A stretch of 60,028 nt of DNA from a gamma proteobacterium HIMB30 (GTDB lineage Bacteria; Pseudomonadota; Gammaproteobacteria; Pseudomonadales; Litorivicinaceae). The notes below the pieces were generated by a model. That model had not been told where the DNA came from. It made no database searches and saw only the letters and a list, made by a program, of their open reading frames with translations. The position numbers were made by a program, and so were the translations under genes. Positions 54,261-60,023 of this stretch are shown piece after piece. The stretch covers positions 1-60,028 of the forward strand of contig AGIG01000016.1 in assembly GCA_000227525.2 (NCBI GenBank). Direction: 5' to 3'. Positions within the stretch are counted from its first letter, which is position 1, and every line of letters begins with the position of its first letter.

Positions 54261-54279
54261 TAAGAAAAAATTACATTAT
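54261..54279 (+). promoter_or_regulatory. Putative LysR-type operator upstream of the SDH-like operon
   Basis: TAAGAAAAAATTACATTAT is found again, with one mismatch, at 60005-60023 in front of the LysR gene. It contains the T-N11-A pattern of LysR sites (TAA-N7-TTA dyad). It lies 86 bases before the ATG of the first gene. A second dyad, AACGA-TTT-TCGTT, is at 54292-54304. Confidence 0.6.
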
Positions 54280-54305: not shown

Positions 54306-54373
54306 CACTATCATTGGTTATGATTTGAACATGAAAACGCACTATCATTGGTTATGATTTGAACATGAAAACG
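54306..54373 (+). repeat. Tandem duplication of a 34-base unit spanning the start codon
   Basis: Two exact 34-base copies lie head to tail (54306-54339 and 54340-54373). Each holds the dyad ATCAT-TGGTT-ATGAT, a TATGAT -10-like box and an ATG followed by AAAACG. The second copy's ATG (54365) is the operon's first start codon. The first copy's ATG (54331) opens an eight-codon ORF, MKTHYHWL, that stops at 54357. Confidence 0.85.
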
Positions 54374-55105
54374 AAAGATCAAACATTAACGGTGTCCATC
54401 GATCGCTTCGATGGGACATCGCACTATCAGACGACTCACGACGTTCCCACCCGCGATAATCAAACGGTGCTTGACGTTGTGACATGGATTCAACAACACG
54501 ATGATCCGACGCTGTCGTATCGATTCGCGTGTCGAGTGGGTATGTGCGGCTCCTGTGCGATGAATATTAATGGCGAACCCAAGTGGTCATGTCGTACGCA
54601 TGTCAGCAAAGTGGTCGACGCCGGATCGGCTTTACGAATCTCACCACTTCGGAATATGCCGATATTACGAGACCTATCAGTCGATATGACGCCGTTTTTC
54701 GATAAATGGACGCAGGCCGTCGGCTATTTTGTGCCAACACAAACCAAAGATGATCCGTTGCCGGCCATTAAGTCCGACGACCGAGACCGCGCCAAGGCAA
54801 ACCAATCGATCGAATGCATCAACTGCGGAATTTGTTATTCCGCCTGTGATGTGGTCGCAGCAAATGATGCTTATCTGGGTCCTGCTGCCCTGAATCGTGC
54901 CTGGACGTTGGTGAATGACGAACGAGATGGCGGAGCGAAAGAGCGTCTGGAAGCGGTCAGCAGTGATGCAGGGTGTCACAATTGCCACTCTCAACATGGT
55001 TGCTCGACATATTGCCCCAACCTGCTGGCACCCGCGACCTCAATTGCCGGACTGAAGCGGCAGACCTTACTCAACCTGCTACCTTGGGGCTCGCACGATG
55101 ATTGA
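54365..55105 (+). CDS. Succinate dehydrogenase/fumarate reductase-like iron-sulfur subunit
   Basis: Electron-transfer subunit of a complex II-like enzyme. The 246 residues carry a 2Fe-2S ferredoxin domain with Cys56, Cys61, Cys64 and Cys76 (CRVGMCGSC). The C-terminal domain has 151-CINCGICYSAC-161 for the 4Fe-4S cluster and Cys207, Cys213, Cys217 (CHSQHGCSTYCP) for the 3Fe-4S and remaining sites; Cys204 is extra. YLGPAALNRAW is conserved. ATG 54365 is chosen over the TTG at 54359. It overlaps the next gene by 8 bases. The order B-anchor-anchor-A differs from the standard sdhCDAB. Confidence 0.9.
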   Translation: MKTKDQTLTVSIDRFDGTSHYQTTHDVPTRDNQTVLDVVTWIQQHDDPTLSYRFACRVGMCGSCAMNINGEPKWSCRTHVSKVVDAGSALRISPLRNMPILRDLSVDMTPFFDKWTQAVGYFVPTQTKDDPLPAIKSDDRDRAKANQSIECINCGICYSACDVVAANDAYLGPAALNRAWTLVNDERDGGAKERLEAVSSDAGCHNCHSQHGCSTYCPNLLAPATSIAGLKRQTLLNLLPWGSHDD

Positions 55106-55430
55106 CGCGCGACTGTATTTACTCCAAAGGCTGACAGCGATTGCGATGTTGCCACTAATTGCGACACATCTGATTCTGATGATCGTTGCGATTAATGGTG
55201 GTTTGACTGCAGAAGAGATCCTAGGTCGGACCCAAGGGTCGGTTGGTTGGGCGCTGTTTTATGGCTCTTTCGTCATCTTTGCTGCAATTCACGGAGCGAT
55301 TGGATTCCGAACCATTGCCTACGAGTGGTTAATTCCGAATATCCGGATTTGCAGTGTGGCATCATTCGGTCTTTTGATTGTTCTCATTGGTCTTGGTCTC
55401 CGTGCCGTCTATGCGGTGATCGTATTATGA
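55098..55430 (+). CDS. Complex II-like membrane anchor subunit 1
   Basis: A 110-residue protein with three membrane helices (about 12-33, 49-70, 82-105). YLLQRLTAIAMLPLIATHL and GAIHGAIGFRTIAYEW hold His residues in helices 1 and 2 that could bind heme b, and an Arg suited to a quinone site. It resembles the FrdC/SdhD-type anchors of other complexes only in pattern. It overlaps both neighbours (8 and 4 bases). Confidence 0.8.
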   Translation: MIDARLYLLQRLTAIAMLPLIATHLILMIVAINGGLTAEEILGRTQGSVGWALFYGSFVIFAAIHGAIGFRTIAYEWLIPNIRICSVASFGLLIVLIGLGLRAVYAVIVL

Positions 55431-55762
55431 AACATCGATCTCACCCGTTATGGAAAGCATTTGTTGTCCATCGAATTTCAGGACTCGCCTTAGCACTGTT
55501 TCTGCCAGTTCATTTTTTCGTCCTCGGACTTGCGCTTGAGGGTGCTGAGTCGTTGAATGCTGCTCTGAAATTCTCGGAATTACCTTTCGTGAAATCCGCT
55601 GAAGTACTTTTAGTCCTGCTTCTCGCAGTCCATTTGCTCGGTGGTATTCGAATTCTCATCCTCGAACTCACACAGTTGTCCTGGGATCAACGCATACTGA
55701 ATCGGAGTGCGTTTAGCTTGTCCGTTGTTATCGCAGGAATTTTTCTTTGGAGTGCTGTCTGA
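55427..55762 (+). CDS. Complex II-like membrane anchor subunit 2 (SdhC-like)
   Basis: A 111-residue, three-helix protein (about 14-34, 52-75, 88-108). FVVHRISGLALALFLPVHFF holds the HRxSG motif of cytochrome b556 (SdhC), whose Ser and Arg shape the quinone site, and LLAVHLLGGIRILILEL holds the heme-binding His and the HxxGGIR motif. ATG 55427 overlaps the previous stop in ATGA, and the stop overlaps the flavoprotein ATG (TGATG). Confidence 0.83.
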   Translation: MKHRSHPLWKAFVVHRISGLALALFLPVHFFVLGLALEGAESLNAALKFSELPFVKSAEVLLVLLLAVHLLGGIRILILELTQLSWDQRILNRSAFSLSVVIAGIFLWSAV

Positions 55763-57510
55763 TGACATATCAAACTATCACAACTGATATTTTAATCTTG
55801 GGTTCAGGTGGGGCCGGATTATTTGCGGCATTACATGCCAAAAAACAGGACCCAAATCTGTCCGTGACCATCGCTGTCAAAGGATTACTCGGAAAGTGTG
55901 GGTGCACGCGAATGGTGCAGGGCGGATACAACGTCGCACTCGCGCCAGGTGACTCGGTCGAACGACATTTCATGGATACCATCGAGGGAGGCAAATGGCT
56001 CCCACATCAAGAAATGGCATGGACCCTCTGTCAAACTGCTCCCGAGCGAATTCGAGAACTTGAAAACGAACTCGGATGCTTTTTTGATCGGAACCCCGAT
56101 GGATCGATCCATCAAAAAGCCTTTGCGGGCCAGACATTCGATCGCACTGTGCACAAAGGGGACTTGACGGGCATCGAAATCATCGGTCGTCTCATGGAGC
56201 AAGTCCACGCGAGGGGTGTTCGTAAACTCGAGGAGCATCGTGCGATCGAGTTGATTCGTTCCAAATCGGATGGGCGCATCGCTGGTGTTTTGATGATCGA
56301 CATGCGCTCGGGCGATTTCGTCTTCGTCCGTGCAAAGACCGTTCTGATGGCGACAGGTGGAGGGCCGACCATGTATCGCTATCACACCCCGTCCGGCGAC
56401 AAGAGTATGGATGGACTTGCGATGGCCTTACGCGCTGGTATCACATTACGAGATATGGAAATGGTGCAATTCCATCCAACCGGTCTACTGGGAGGTGAAG
56501 GAACCCGGATGACGGGTACTGTCCTCGAGGAGGGTTTACGTGGTGCAGGCGGCCACTTGCTCAACGGACACAAAGAACGGTTCATGTTCAAGTATGACGA
56601 ACGTGGAGAACGCGCCACGCGCGATATTGTTTCGCGCGGAATTTACGAGGAAATGCGGAGTGGCCACACCTCGCCACTTGGTGGCGTGTATATCGCCATG
56701 GGACATTTGGGCGCGGAGAATGTTTCGAAAAAATTCGCCGGAATGGTCAAACGGTGTGCAGACTGCGGATTCGATCTCGCCGGTGGCTTGGTCGAGGTCG
56801 TACCAACAGCACATTATCTGATGGGAGGCGTCATTGTATCGCCAGATACTCGAACAGAGATTCCAGGCTTGTTCGTCGCTGGTGAAGATGCCGGCGGCGC
56901 GCATGGCTCGAATCGCCTCGGTGGCAACGGAGTTGCCAACTCAACGGTCTTTGGCGGGATCGCTGGTGATCAAATGGCACAAGAATCGTCAGGAATTGCC
57001 CACTACGCTGAGCCGGATCATCAAGCAATCGATCAAGCCATCGAAAGGACCTTGTTCCCATTGACGCTCAGTGGCGGATCAATACATGAGATTCGAGAGG
57101 ACCTCCTTCATTCAATGTGGGACCACGTCGGTGTCATGCGGACCGAGGACGCTCTACACCAAGGGCTGACAAAAATTCGGGCGTTACGCACCGAATTACA
57201 ATCAACCGGGGTCGCATTGAAAGCGCGGTCGTTCAATATGGCATGGCATGAGTGGCTTAATCTGGAAAGCTTGATTGAGACCTCTGAAGTGATCTGCCTC
57301 TCGGCTCTCGCAAGAGATAATTCAAGAGGTGCACACTTCCGTGAGGACTATCCCGAGGCAGGAGACTTTGAGTCATCGTTCTTCACTACTGCGAGTCTTT
57401 CAAGCCAGGGATATCAAGTCGATCGGCGTCCGGTTGAGTTTACGCGAGTGAGACCTGGTGAAACGCTACTCGATCGCGAAGAGCTTTTGGCTGACGAGGT
57501 GACTTCATGA
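55762..57510 (+). CDS. Succinate dehydrogenase/fumarate reductase-like flavoprotein subunit, atypical
   Basis: The 582 residues form an SdhA/FrdA-type flavoprotein. FAD motif LILGSGGAGLFAA is at 11-23. The covalent-FAD His of SdhA (in SHTVSAQGG) is replaced by Cys48 in GCTRMVQGG. His238 (QFHPTG), Arg287 (ATRDIVSR), His351 (PTAHYLMGG) and the late NRLGGN Arg are kept. The loop before EGLRGAGG is about six residues longer than in E. coli SdhA, and the substrate-contacting Thr next to Glu appears as Glu256. The Cys suggests non-covalent FAD, as in NadB or fumarate reductase-direction enzymes; the loop suggests another substrate. ATG 55762 overlaps the previous stop. Confidence 0.9.
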   Translation: MTYQTITTDILILGSGGAGLFAALHAKKQDPNLSVTIAVKGLLGKCGCTRMVQGGYNVALAPGDSVERHFMDTIEGGKWLPHQEMAWTLCQTAPERIRELENELGCFFDRNPDGSIHQKAFAGQTFDRTVHKGDLTGIEIIGRLMEQVHARGVRKLEEHRAIELIRSKSDGRIAGVLMIDMRSGDFVFVRAKTVLMATGGGPTMYRYHTPSGDKSMDGLAMALRAGITLRDMEMVQFHPTGLLGGEGTRMTGTVLEEGLRGAGGHLLNGHKERFMFKYDERGERATRDIVSRGIYEEMRSGHTSPLGGVYIAMGHLGAENVSKKFAGMVKRCADCGFDLAGGLVEVVPTAHYLMGGVIVSPDTRTEIPGLFVAGEDAGGAHGSNRLGGNGVANSTVFGGIAGDQMAQESSGIAHYAEPDHQAIDQAIERTLFPLTLSGGSIHEIREDLLHSMWDHVGVMRTEDALHQGLTKIRALRTELQSTGVALKARSFNMAWHEWLNLESLIETSEVICLSALARDNSRGAHFREDYPEAGDFESSFFTTASLSSQGYQVDRRPVEFTRVRPGETLLDREELLADEVTS

Positions 57511-58451
57511 TTTCTCTCGATCTCATCGAATCCACCGCGAACGAATTGATGCGAAAGGCAGCAGTGGAGATCCCTTGCGATTATTTGACAGCGCTTCAAC
57601 AGTTGACCGCTGAGGAAGAGGCGAGCTTGTCGTGTTTTGTTCTGGAGACCATGCTCGAGAATTACGAAGCAGCGGAAACCGATGGACGACCAATGTGTGG
57701 TGATACCGGCTGTCCTCGTTGGTATGTCAAATTTGGCAACGAAAGTCGGGTTGAGGGAGGTGGAGTTGGCCTCGAAGCTGCTCTTAGACGGGCAACAGCG
57801 CAAGCGACCCATGATATTCCGTTGCGTCCCAACCGCGTACACCCGCTATCGCGCGCCGACCATAACAATAACGTCGGGATTGGAGCACCAGAGATTGAGT
57901 ATGGATTCGAACCCGATGGCGAATGGATCGATATCACGACCGTACACAAGGGTGGCCTTTTTGGAACTGACTATCGAATGTTGTTCCCAAGTGATGGTAT
58001 CGCTGGTATTCGACGCTTTTTTCTCGATTCCTTAGCCGCATTTGGGAAGCGCGGGCTTGCGTGCCAACCGGCGATCATAGGCATTGGGCTTGGTGGTTCA
58101 AAAGATGCATGCATGGTGCTTGGCAAACGTGCCGCGTGTCTCCGGACTGTTGGCGATCAAAACCCCGATCCAAAAATTGCAGAACTTGAAGAGGAACTGA
58201 AAGAGTTAGGTAACAGCATTGGCATGGGACCCATGGGTTTTGTCGGTAAATCAATGGTCGTGGACTGTCATATCGAAGTCGGCTACTGCCATACCGGGGG
58301 AATGCAAATGAGCATTCATGCATTTTGCCTGTCATCTCGCCGCGCGACCGCGCGCTTGTATCCAGATGGCCGCACTGAATACCGTACAGACCCACAATGG
58401 TTCACACCATATCAGCGTAGAGAGACAGTGGAATGGCTAAACAGTCCCTAA
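57507..58451 (+). CDS. Class I fumarase-type hydratase, alpha subunit
   Basis: Catalytic half of a two-subunit iron-sulfur hydro-lyase (fumarase, L-tartrate dehydratase or mesaconase type). The 314 residues keep three cluster cysteines: Cys64 in MCGDTGCP, Cys186 in LACQPAIIGIGLGGS and Cys274 in HAFCLSSRRA. The motif GMGPMGFVGKSM is present, but the following VVDCHIEVGYCHTGGMQMSI differs from the usual HPASLPVA stretch, which argues against a plain fumarase. It overlaps the flavoprotein stop by four bases. Confidence 0.87.
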   Translation: MISLDLIESTANELMRKAAVEIPCDYLTALQQLTAEEEASLSCFVLETMLENYEAAETDGRPMCGDTGCPRWYVKFGNESRVEGGGVGLEAALRRATAQATHDIPLRPNRVHPLSRADHNNNVGIGAPEIEYGFEPDGEWIDITTVHKGGLFGTDYRMLFPSDGIAGIRRFFLDSLAAFGKRGLACQPAIIGIGLGGSKDACMVLGKRAACLRTVGDQNPDPKIAELEEELKELGNSIGMGPMGFVGKSMVVDCHIEVGYCHTGGMQMSIHAFCLSSRRATARLYPDGRTEYRTDPQWFTPYQRRETVEWLNSP

Positions 58452-59107
58452 GAAAAATCCGCCTGAGCACAAATCCGACTGAGGACGAGCTACGCGCACT
58501 CAAACTGGGTGACGTTGTGTATTTGCATGGCAGTGTCTACACCGCACGCGAAGGGGTCTACATTCGAGTCGTTGAAGATAAGCATCCATTACCTTTGGAA
58601 CTTCCAAAAGAAAGTGCTGCCAACTTTCACTGCTCCCCTGCCGCCTCGATCAATGATGATGGATCGATCAACATGGGTGCGGTCACTGCAACTGCATCAT
58701 TTCGATTCAGTAAATGGCTGGATGACTGGTTTAAAGTCTCCGGGGCGAAGTTGATTCTCGGCAAAGGGGGAATGACTTCAAACGACTACCGTCGAGACTT
58801 CGTACCAAATGGCGCGATTTATTTGACAACGGTTGGGTATGGAACGGGAGCACTTCTCGGACGCGGCGTACAACGTGTGCGTGATGTCTATTGGTCCGAT
58901 GATCTTGGTCTTGCACAAGCGATTTGGCTGATTGATGTCGAAGAGTTTGGTCCATTTATTGTTGAGAGTGACTTTGAGGGCAATAGTCTTTTCGAACGCG
59001 AAAACGCACGTGTTGCAGAGACGCTGACTCGCGCATATGAAGGGACTCGACCGGCAGTACTCAAACGCTTTGGAGAAACCGACGACCGCACCGATGAGTT
59101 GATTTAA
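58433..59107 (+). CDS. Class I fumarase-type hydratase, beta subunit
   Basis: Partner (swivelling C-terminal domain) of the alpha subunit at 57507. The 224 residues start LRALKLGDVVYLHGSVYTAR, corresponding to the LxaGdxvxlsGxiytaRD of the family, then LGKGGMTSNDYRRDFVPNGA near residue 109. It overlaps alpha by 19 bases, so both are translated together. In a complex with alpha it would hydrate the product of the dehydrogenase encoded upstream. Confidence 0.87.
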   Translation: MAKQSLRKIRLSTNPTEDELRALKLGDVVYLHGSVYTAREGVYIRVVEDKHPLPLELPKESAANFHCSPAASINDDGSINMGAVTATASFRFSKWLDDWFKVSGAKLILGKGGMTSNDYRRDFVPNGAIYLTTVGYGTGALLGRGVQRVRDVYWSDDLGLAQAIWLIDVEEFGPFIVESDFEGNSLFERENARVAETLTRAYEGTRPAVLKRFGETDDRTDELI

Positions 59108-59983
59108 TCAACTTTCGCGGCCGACCGTATCCATCAACGTCGCCGCGAGCAAATCAATCAGCGGAGCCTTGGTGGTATTGCGGCGGTTAATGAGCCCGAT
59201 ATCACGCCCGACTGGACCATTTTCCAGTTTAAAGCGCTTGACTGGACGCAAATCTGGTATCGATACACAACTTCTTGGGACCATGGATACTCCTAAATTG
59301 TGCGACACCATCGTTGCGATGGTATCCAAGCTCTCGAGCTCCATGGTCTCTTGCACTGGAATTTTTTGTTTCTGCAACCACTCGTCGATTGCGCTGCCTA
59401 CCAGCGCACGACGTGAAAATCGAATAAATGGGCGAGTGCGAATAATCTCCAGGGGATCGGCTAAATGCTCTTCAGCAGAGGCAATTAACTCAATCGACTC
59501 AAGGGCGACACTGGTGAATTGAACGTTGTGCGGCAAACGGACCGGCTTGGTGACGATCGCCGCATCCAGCACACCCCGTTCAACTTGTGAAATCAGCTCA
59601 ATCGATAAGCCTGGGTAAACGCGAACATGCAAGCTGTCATGGCGCTTCTGTAATTCTTTCAACGCAATTGGAACCAAGCCACTCAGACTCGTTGGCACCG
59701 CGCCGAATGATAGCTCGCCACGAATCTCGAGATTCATTGAATCAGGAACCATCGCGTCATATCTCTCTACGACATCACGCGCCTTCTGTAAGATCCGTTT
59801 ACCAAGCTCAGTCAACGTGGGTACACGAGTTGATCGATCGAATAGTGAGACTCCGAGCTCATCTTCAAGATGTTTCATCTGCTGGCTAACGGTCGCATGC
59901 GTCACAAAAGCAACATTCGCGGCTGCAGTAAAGCTCCCCTCTTCTGCTACTTTGATAAACGTACGCAAGCGCCGAATCGACAT
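59108..59983 (-). CDS. LysR-type transcriptional regulator
   Basis: The 291 residues have the N-terminal winged helix (MSIRRLRTFIKVAEEGSFTA with ATVSQQMKHLEDELGVSLFD) and a two-lobed effector domain from about residue 90. It faces the end of the hydratase operon (one base after the beta-subunit stop). Its upstream sequence shares a 19-base element with the operon's promoter region, which suggests it controls both. The effector is probably the dicarboxylate used by the pathway. Confidence 0.9.
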   Translation of the reverse strand: MSIRRLRTFIKVAEEGSFTAAANVAFVTHATVSQQMKHLEDELGVSLFDRSTRVPTLTELGKRILQKARDVVERYDAMVPDSMNLEIRGELSFGAVPTSLSGLVPIALKELQKRHDSLHVRVYPGLSIELISQVERGVLDAAIVTKPVRLPHNVQFTSVALESIELIASAEEHLADPLEIIRTRPFIRFSRRALVGSAIDEWLQKQKIPVQETMELESLDTIATMVSHNLGVSMVPRSCVSIPDLRPVKRFKLENGPVGRDIGLINRRNTTKAPLIDLLAATLMDTVGRES

Positions 59984-60004: not shown

Positions 60005-60023
60005 TAAGAAAAAATTACACTAT
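60005..60023 (-). promoter_or_regulatory. Putative LysR-type operator in front of the LysR gene
   Basis: TAAGAAAAAATTACACTAT (plus-strand reading), 22-40 bases before the LysR ATG at 59983. It matches 54261-54279 at 18 of 19 positions and has the dyad GTAA-N6-TTAC with the base before it. This is the expected place for autoregulation. Confidence 0.6.

Follow-up and report, generated by a model that had tools for sequence, protein, structure and literature searches.

The window analyzed here is a 60,028-nucleotide stretch of DNA from the gammaproteobacterium HIMB30 and represents the entire contig C21 of a 2.17 Mb genome. Near its end, six genes lie on the + strand at positions 54365 to 59107, and each of them overlaps the next gene by 1 to 19 bases in the open reading frame (ORF) listing. 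The operon combines a homologue of complex II, the family of succinate dehydrogenase (Sdh) and fumarate reductase (Frd), with a two-subunit hydratase of the fumarase type. We propose that it may be the entry of a pathway for three-carbon (C3) organosulfonates.

Composition and relatives of the six-gene operon

The operon, the convergent regulator gene behind it, and two operator-like sites are arranged in the window as follows:

54261 to 54279, + strand: operator-like site TAAGAAAAAATTACATTAT, upstream of the operon (pattern match)
54365 to 55105, + strand: iron-sulfur subunit of the SdhB/FrdB family, gene B (Fer2_3 and 4Fe-4S dicluster domains; TIGR00384, 195 bits)
55098 to 55430, + strand: membrane anchor 1, SdhD-like (Sdh_cyt, 31 bits; H-x3-G-x-R read in the sequence)
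55427 to 55762, + strand: membrane anchor 2, SdhC-like (Sdh_cyt, 42 bits; HRxSG and H-x3-G-x-R read in the sequence)
55762 to 57510, + strand: flavoprotein A, proposed 3-sulfopropanoate dehydrogenase (FAD_binding_2, 238 bits; Succ_DH_flav_C; own clade; Cys/Glu signature)
57507 to 58451, + strand: hydratase alpha subunit, proposed 3-sulfoacrylate hydratase (Fumerase, 229.9 bits with a cut-off of 25; own clade)
58433 to 59107, + strand: hydratase beta subunit (Fumerase_C, 76.1 bits with a cut-off of 22.2)
59108 to 59983, - strand: LysR-type regulator, convergent to the operon (HTH_1 and LysR_substrate)
60005 to 60023, + strand: second copy of the operator-like site, before lysR and, across the contig break, before tctC (pattern match)

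The frame of gene B opens in the ORF list at a TTG at 54359, and we took the gene from 54365; the frame of anchor 2 likewise opens at an earlier TTG, and its ATG start was taken instead. A perfect tandem duplication of 34 bases (window 54306-54373) spans the start of gene B. The ATG in its first copy reaches a stop after 8 codons, and the duplication is absent from the upstream regions of G056, a genome of the same genus, and of locus L029.

All domains of the complex II family (flavoprotein, iron-sulfur subunit, and membrane anchors) are present, as are both class I iron-sulfur hydratase domains. The first four genes share with complex II the four-subunit make-up and the cofactor domains but differ from it in the order B-anchor-anchor-A. 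The hydratase, like FumA, TtdAB, and mesaconase, belongs to the Fumerase and Fumerase_C families, with two subunits encoded in the operon, and the best solved relative of both subunits is 7xky, a two-subunit fumarate hydratase.

These genes are distinct from those of the ordinary tricarboxylic acid (TCA) cycle. The genome holds a separate sdhCDAB on contig C2, whose products are 57, 39, 70, and 71% identical to Escherichia coli SdhC, SdhD, SdhA, and SdhB, respectively, and a second class I fumarase on contig C35; no fumC was found in the genome by the FumaraseC_C model. The flavoprotein of the operon is 33 to 35% identical to E. coli SdhA, FrdA, and NadB and to the SdhA and NadB of its own genome. 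In a tree built from every fifth of 74 clade rows and the references (14 of 18 reference rows kept), it falls in a separate clade (support 100/100) outside the SdhA and FrdA clades. The alpha subunit also forms its own clade (support 100/99) and groups with neither FumA nor TtdA in a tree of every sixth of 87 rows and the references. The reference rows of the latter tree are long-branched, and TtdA is placed beside the clade at 89/80 on a very long branch, leaving the deeper order unsure. Unlike the class I references, the alpha clade has 15 positions that are conserved in at least 97% of its rows with a residue absent from the 11 reference rows (counting only positions at which at least 6 references agree). 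Given the additional sdhCDAB and fumarase elsewhere in the genome and the distinct clades, we rejected a role of the operon as ordinary TCA cycle genes. An earlier note on this DNA had argued that a normal TCA cycle does not need such an operon; the genome's own sdhCDAB and additional class I fumarase agree with that argument, and so does the position of the operon's proteins outside the ordinary clades, the second count on which the note had invited a check.

The flavoprotein resembles complex II at its catalytic center and departs from it elsewhere. In E. coli SdhA, whose numbering is used here, His242, Arg286, His354, and Arg399 are catalytic, His45 links the flavin adenine dinucleotide (FAD), and Thr254 lies in the substrate site. 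The four catalytic residues are conserved in all 76 rows compared and in four distant rows. In contrast, His45 is replaced by Cys and Thr254 by Glu in 76 of 76 rows, and the rows displayed have an insertion directly before the Glu254 position. Both replacements also occur in the flavoproteins of Methylobacterium, Rhodococcus, Natribaculum, and Haloarcula. The 76 rows comprise 74 of the 87 loci described below, the window, and G056, and 74 of them are distinct (L089 duplicates L111, and the L030 and G056 rows come from one contig). The 13 loci omitted were 9 with no flavoprotein in the DNA covered and 4 in which it is cut or split (L068, L095, L099, and L108). Because the catalytic residues are kept while two flavin or substrate positions are changed, the comparison suggests the same chemistry as in complex II with a different substrate site and flavin linkage.

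Distribution and genomic context of the operon

A scan of public genomes with the alpha subunit gave 405 matching stretches, of which the best 80 were kept; nearly all of these 80 are titled Alphaproteobacteria or genera of that class, and several Roseovarius and Paracoccus carry the operon. With 7 plasmid loci they make up a set of 87 loci, whose neighboring genes were identified by tblastn with annotated queries. All six genes are present in 72 of the 87 loci, and because every one of these 72 keeps their order and strand, the arrangement is not due to chance. The earlier note had described six overlapping genes of these families at this place, in an order (B, anchor, anchor, A, hydratase) other than the standard sdhCDAB, and the ORFs, domain searches, and loci bear out both descriptions.

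Within the order to which the window genome belongs, a search with the flavoprotein matches 144 of 145 genomes, because SdhA is a homologue. A close flavoprotein (88%) occurs, besides the window genome, only in G056, and the other matches listed from the 145 genomes are 33 to 37% identical. On plasmids, the alpha family drops sharply, with 12 records at 68 to 79% identity and the next at 35%. In both trees, the window proteins and two other gammaproteobacterial rows form a branch inside a mostly alphaproteobacterial family, and the operon was therefore likely acquired by transfer.

Genes for the handling of sulfite recur beside the operon. Among the 87 loci, a TauE-type exporter is found in 39, a YeiH-type exporter in 12, a SorA-type sulfite dehydrogenase in 8, and any of the three in 44; where at least 2.5 kb beyond the beta gene is covered, the count is 41 of 70. 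Because the window genome alone has 9 TauE-family genes, single TauE neighbors mean little, and the weight lies in the repeated pattern of sulfite genes together with the link to the sulfo-lyase SuyAB.

This link is seen in the window genus itself. Contig C1 of the window genome opens with tctC, tctB, and tctA (assigned by Pfam), a thiamine pyrophosphate (TPP) enzyme, an alpha/beta hydrolase, tauE, and an MR/MLE enzyme. There follow, on the other strand, comC (Ldh_2), slcC (2-hydroxyacid dehydrogenase family), suyB (galactarate/altronate dehydratase family), and suyA, and beyond suyA lie gntR on the first strand and then iclR and a three-subunit molybdo-enzyme with a DmsC-type anchor, similar to SoeABC. 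C21, which ends in lysR, and C1, which starts with tctC, share no overlap, but their facing ends align collinearly, 6 bases apart, on one stretch of G056, which makes it very likely that C21 and C1 join. In G056, contigs C37 (soe-like genes, suyAB, slcC, comC) and C15 (comC, lysR, operon) have an exact overlap of 121 bases inside comC; therefore, the soe-like genes, suyAB, slcC, comC, lysR, and the operon lie in one row. By homology and synteny, with family cut-offs unreached, sulfolactate dehydrogenases and a sulfo-lyase are thus present in the window genome. SuyB was found in 3 of the 145 genomes of the order, including both operon carriers, whereas the four further members of the genus that were sampled gave no SuyB; Xsc was found in neither operon carrier of the order (the window genome and G056). 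In the sister species, a tctC-like stretch whose start looks decayed lies between lysR and comC (L026:12489-12864), with no tctB or tctA between it and comC. The TPP enzyme and the MR/MLE enzyme (L128:3083-4657 and L128:5919-7157), seen on C1, recur near the operon in 7 of the 87 loci each.

The same genes accompany relatives of the operon in distant hosts, in a gene comparison that is uninformative on anchor 2. In Paracoccus versutus, the operon, YeiH, NIPSNAP, TauE, lysR, comC, slcC, tct genes, and suyAB fall within about 26 kb. About 14 kb of Methylobacterium radiotolerans contain a flavoprotein at 64% and a hydratase at only 35%, together with a TPP enzyme, TauE, a UxaA pair (SuyA and, at 72%, SuyB), SlcC, and ComC. 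In Rhodococcus RHA1, A, B, and a hydratase lie 15 to 20 kb from SuyAB, SlcC, and ComC, and TauE was not found in the region with the queries used. In the haloarchaea Natribaculum and Haloarcula, A (48 to 51%) and B have TauE and a UxaA pair as neighbors, with an intervening ArgH/Lyase_1 protein. The larger protein of the pair is only 33 to 35% like SuyB, and Haloarcula also carries an Ldh-family gene. The argininosuccinate-lyase-like protein near these genes (L164:10203-11705 and L165:8284-9786) may be a hydratase of unrelated origin that fills this role. In Cupriavidus sp. P-10, the operon is present, and SuyB was not found in the stretch examined.

Co-occurrence across replicons gives a similar picture. 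Among plasmids, 17 records have the flavoprotein (E value of 1e-150 or better), 13 have SuyB (at least 60%), and 6 have both, compared to 0.003 expected if independent, a figure that treats the records as independent although related plasmids are not. Among 40 operon genomes other than that of the window, SuyB is found in 12, Xsc in 28, and either of them in 34. In a family sample of 198 genomes, 22 of the 24 with the operon have SuyB or Xsc, as do 114 of the remaining 174 (one-sided Fisher test, P = 0.006); for Xsc alone, the counts are 21 of 24 and 106 of 174 (P = 0.007). These P values ignore the relatedness of the genomes.

Several loci depart from the common layout. On a plasmid of Paracoccus pantotrophus DSM 11072 (L144:12767-16951), the latter two thirds of the flavoprotein, alpha, beta, YeiH, and NIPSNAP are matched and B and the anchors are not, so that this copy looks truncated. 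A TauD/TfdA-family dioxygenase adjoins the hydratase genes in L040, L060, L086, and L091, with no dehydrogenase in the DNA covered. On a plasmid of the arsenite oxidizer NT-25 (L109:20369-22894), the operon is followed by a tripartite ATP-independent periplasmic (TRAP) transporter and then by genes annotated as sulfolactaldehyde 3-reductase and succinate-semialdehyde dehydrogenase, which could feed in other C3 sulfonates.

A proposed route from 3-sulfopropanoate and its alternatives

Taken with its neighbors, the operon very probably has a role in sulfonate metabolism. A sulfonate pathway leading to sulfolactate is well supported by context, and 3-sulfopropanoate, our best guess, is the likely substrate. 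This compound is succinate with one carboxylate swapped for a sulfonate. The four-subunit complex II homologue would oxidize it to 3-sulfoacrylate and deliver the electrons to quinone by way of its iron-sulfur and b-heme subunits, and the two-subunit iron-sulfur hydratase would add water to 3-sulfoacrylate, giving 3-sulfolactate. In the window genome, SlcC and ComC would interconvert the sulfolactate enantiomers, SuyAB would cleave (R)-sulfolactate to pyruvate and sulfite, and the sulfite would be oxidized by the SoeABC-like complex or exported by TauE. The tricarboxylate-type transporter would import the substrate. In other genomes, sulfolactate may proceed via Xsc instead. A hydratase with the geometry of L-malate formation would be expected to yield (R)-sulfolactate, because the Cahn-Ingold-Prelog priorities swap, and (R)-sulfolactate is given as the enantiomer used by SuyAB in part of PMC12421959.

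The regulator probably acts on the operon through the operator-like sites. Within 60 kb, the sequence TAAGAAAAAATTACAYTAT occurs twice where none is expected, once ahead of the operon and once ahead of lysR; a site search allowing up to 2 mismatches returned only those two matches in 60 kb (mean of 0.00 in 100 shuffles). Similar GTAA-N7-TTAC sites precede gene B in both G056 and L029, and in G056 one also precedes lysR. A relative of this LysR protein, mostly 40 to 50% identical, is beside the operon in 48 of the 87 loci. We infer that the LysR regulator binds TAA-N7-TTAC sites and would act there.

Several observations weigh against this assignment. The names ComC, SlcC, SuyAB, and Soe were assigned from similarity and synteny, and no family model reaches its cut-off: the best model for ComC is L-sulfolactate dehydrogenase (226 bits versus a cut-off of 500), the top model for SlcC is phosphoglycerate dehydrogenase, the only model for SuyB is galactarate dehydratase, and SuyA has no Pfam match. 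Among solved structures, ComC is closest to piperideine-2-carboxylate reductase, with L-sulfolactate dehydrogenase third. Furthermore, none of TauE, YeiH, and SorA is seen in 29 of the 70 loci that are covered for 2.5 kb or more behind the beta gene, and SuyB alone is not enriched in operon genomes of the family sample (6 of 24 versus 32 of 174, P = 0.30). The substrate was picked by structure and by a thesis statement discussed below, not by a substrate-specific gene. The remaining points, which concern the flavin linkage, the fate of sulfoacrylate, and one bacterial lineage, bear on particular alternatives.

One of these is the use of the operon in reverse, with sulfolactate dehydrated to sulfoacrylate, whose reduction to 3-sulfopropanoate would serve as an electron sink. 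When fumarate reductase of E. coli loses its FAD-linking His, reduction is favored over oxidation and is the only activity spared, and an unlinked flavin at Cys45 would likewise argue for reduction rather than oxidation. However, many hosts also carry genes for desulfonation and for sulfite oxidation or export, many are aerobes, and the hydration of fumarate-type acids is downhill. We therefore give hardly any weight to this direction, which is also opposite to that of the thesis route, as reported in part of PMC11489063.

The main rival to a route through sulfolactate is direct desulfonation, in which the hydratase would add water at the sulfonate-bearing carbon of 3-sulfoacrylate and the resulting bisulfite adduct of malonate semialdehyde would fall apart into sulfite and malonate semialdehyde. 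In Pseudomonas MPC6, a gene for a coenzyme A (CoA)-acylating methylmalonate-semialdehyde dehydrogenase lies directly behind the beta gene and suits the release of malonate semialdehyde better than sulfolactate formation. Neither SuyB nor Xsc was found in 6 of the 40 operon genomes (G146, G155, G174, G175, G178, and G179; CuyA was not searched), and five of their six loci (L032, L078, L079, L085, and L087) carry TauE, YeiH, NIPSNAP, or SorA. Hydratase-only loci next to TauE or SorA (L056, L076, L081, L082, and L091) would also suit this reaction. Because of the dehydrogenase gene in one locus and the 6 of 40 genomes, we keep direct desulfonation as a rival, yet it is unlikely: the dehydrogenase gene occurs in 1 of 87 loci, and it would leave without use the ComC, SlcC, and SuyAB genes that adjoin the operon in the window genus and those that lie near relatives of A in Methylobacterium, Paracoccus, and Rhodococcus. 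In addition, iron-sulfur hydratases are thought to chelate the carboxylate adjoining the new hydroxyl, which points to sulfolactate as the product.

Sulfosuccinate would allow a related route: it would be oxidized to sulfofumarate, and water added at the sulfonate-bearing carbon would yield a bisulfite adduct of oxaloacetate, which would release sulfite and oxaloacetate. The chemistry is neat, the six genes and a sulfite exporter would suffice, and the substrate suits tricarboxylate-type transporters. However, this route has no use for ComC, SlcC, and SuyAB, and a literature search, judged by titles, found no such pathway; we consider it very improbable.

The earlier note had proposed a dedicated route that oxidizes a substituted succinate to its fumarate analogue and hydrates that to a malate analogue. 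The general logic of this proposal fits the operon, but its example, from methylsuccinate through mesaconate to citramalate, is not favored by the recurrent neighbors, which are sulfite exporters, sulfite dehydrogenases, sulfolactate dehydrogenases, and SuyAB. Such a route for methylsuccinate or another five-carbon (C5) dicarboxylate would continue with CoA activation and cleavage of citramalyl-CoA. Genes that resemble it (CoA-transferase III, FAS1-type dehydratase, HpcH/HpaI lyase, and MmgE/PrpD) lie across lysR in 8 of the 87 loci (PrpD in 7), all of them of the Puniceispirillum-type SAR116 lineage, and a gene of the CoA-transferase III type is inserted between alpha and beta in L080, L084, L101, and L104. 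Class I fumarases can hydrate mesaconate, whereas methylsuccinate oxidation runs on the CoA ester via an acyl-CoA dehydrogenase, according to sections of PMC12290011. None of the four C5 gene types has a match in the window, in L128, or in the sister stretches L026 and L129. They are confined to one lineage, and a C5 route leaves the sulfite genes in 44 of 87 loci and SuyAB unexplained. Xsc matches were found in five of the six SAR116-type genomes searched for it, with two of these matches incomplete and under the cut-off, so these genomes appear to handle sulfonates as well. The SAR116 branch may nevertheless do something else with the operon, and a C5 route may apply there; otherwise, such a route is very unlikely. 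Neither methylsuccinate nor sulfosuccinate was adopted as the substrate, and both are kept as rivals only.

Known routes and implications

The proposed chemistry has a precedent. According to the thesis of J. Mayer, as cited in the excerpted text of PMC11489063, homotaurine is broken down in Roseovarius nubinhibens with 3-sulfopropionate, sulfoacrylate, and sulfolactate as successive intermediates. The steps are the same as those proposed for the operon, but the genes are unnamed in that account. The same 2024 excerpt describes the bacterial degradation of 3-sulfopropionate and 3-hydroxypropanesulfonate as otherwise unreported, and it shows that sulfoquinovose, which forms the head group of plant sulfolipid, is converted to 3-sulfopropionate by Enterococcus gilvus and that Bilophila uses the 3-sulfopropionate as an electron acceptor (PMC11489063). 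In Paracoccus wurundjeri growing on sulfofucose, which is metabolized via sulfolactate, a cluster of the fumarate/tartrate type with a TauE homologue, MDP0926751-0926761, rises (PMC12421959, in part). This cluster may be our operon, and a rise during sulfolactate metabolism would also suit the reverse use weighed above. Sulfolactate degradation by SlcC/ComC and SuyAB, as described in part of PMC12421959, involves genes that lie beside the operon in the window genome and near its relatives in other hosts. In contrast to that route, the operon would turn a reduced precursor into sulfolactate, and beyond the thesis statement we found no description of such an entry. Literature searches, in a scope outside of which lay subscription journals and the thesis itself, turned up no paper that we recognized as naming these genes for this role, and the excerpts of PMC12890257 and PMC11659671 name none of them for it.

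We incline, if only slightly, to a broader view. In it, a distinct and widespread complex II family, marked by a flavin-site Cys and by Glu in place of Thr254, would respire an organosulfonate in both Bacteria and Archaea. The family would be paired with three or more kinds of hydratase (two divergent class I enzymes and a haloarchaeal protein of the argininosuccinate-lyase superfamily) and would be the missing entry of aerobic 3-sulfopropanoate degradation. If the assignment to 3-sulfopropanoate is right, the operon would provide genes for the aerobic breakdown of 3-sulfopropanoate, a step of the sulfur cycle that releases sulfur and feeds carbon, and Cys45 and Glu254 would serve as a residue signature for finding such genes. 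Proteins labeled succinate dehydrogenase, fumarate reductase, or fumarate hydratase in the plasmid records examined would be misnamed, and a complex II homologue would feed electrons from a sulfonate straight into respiration.

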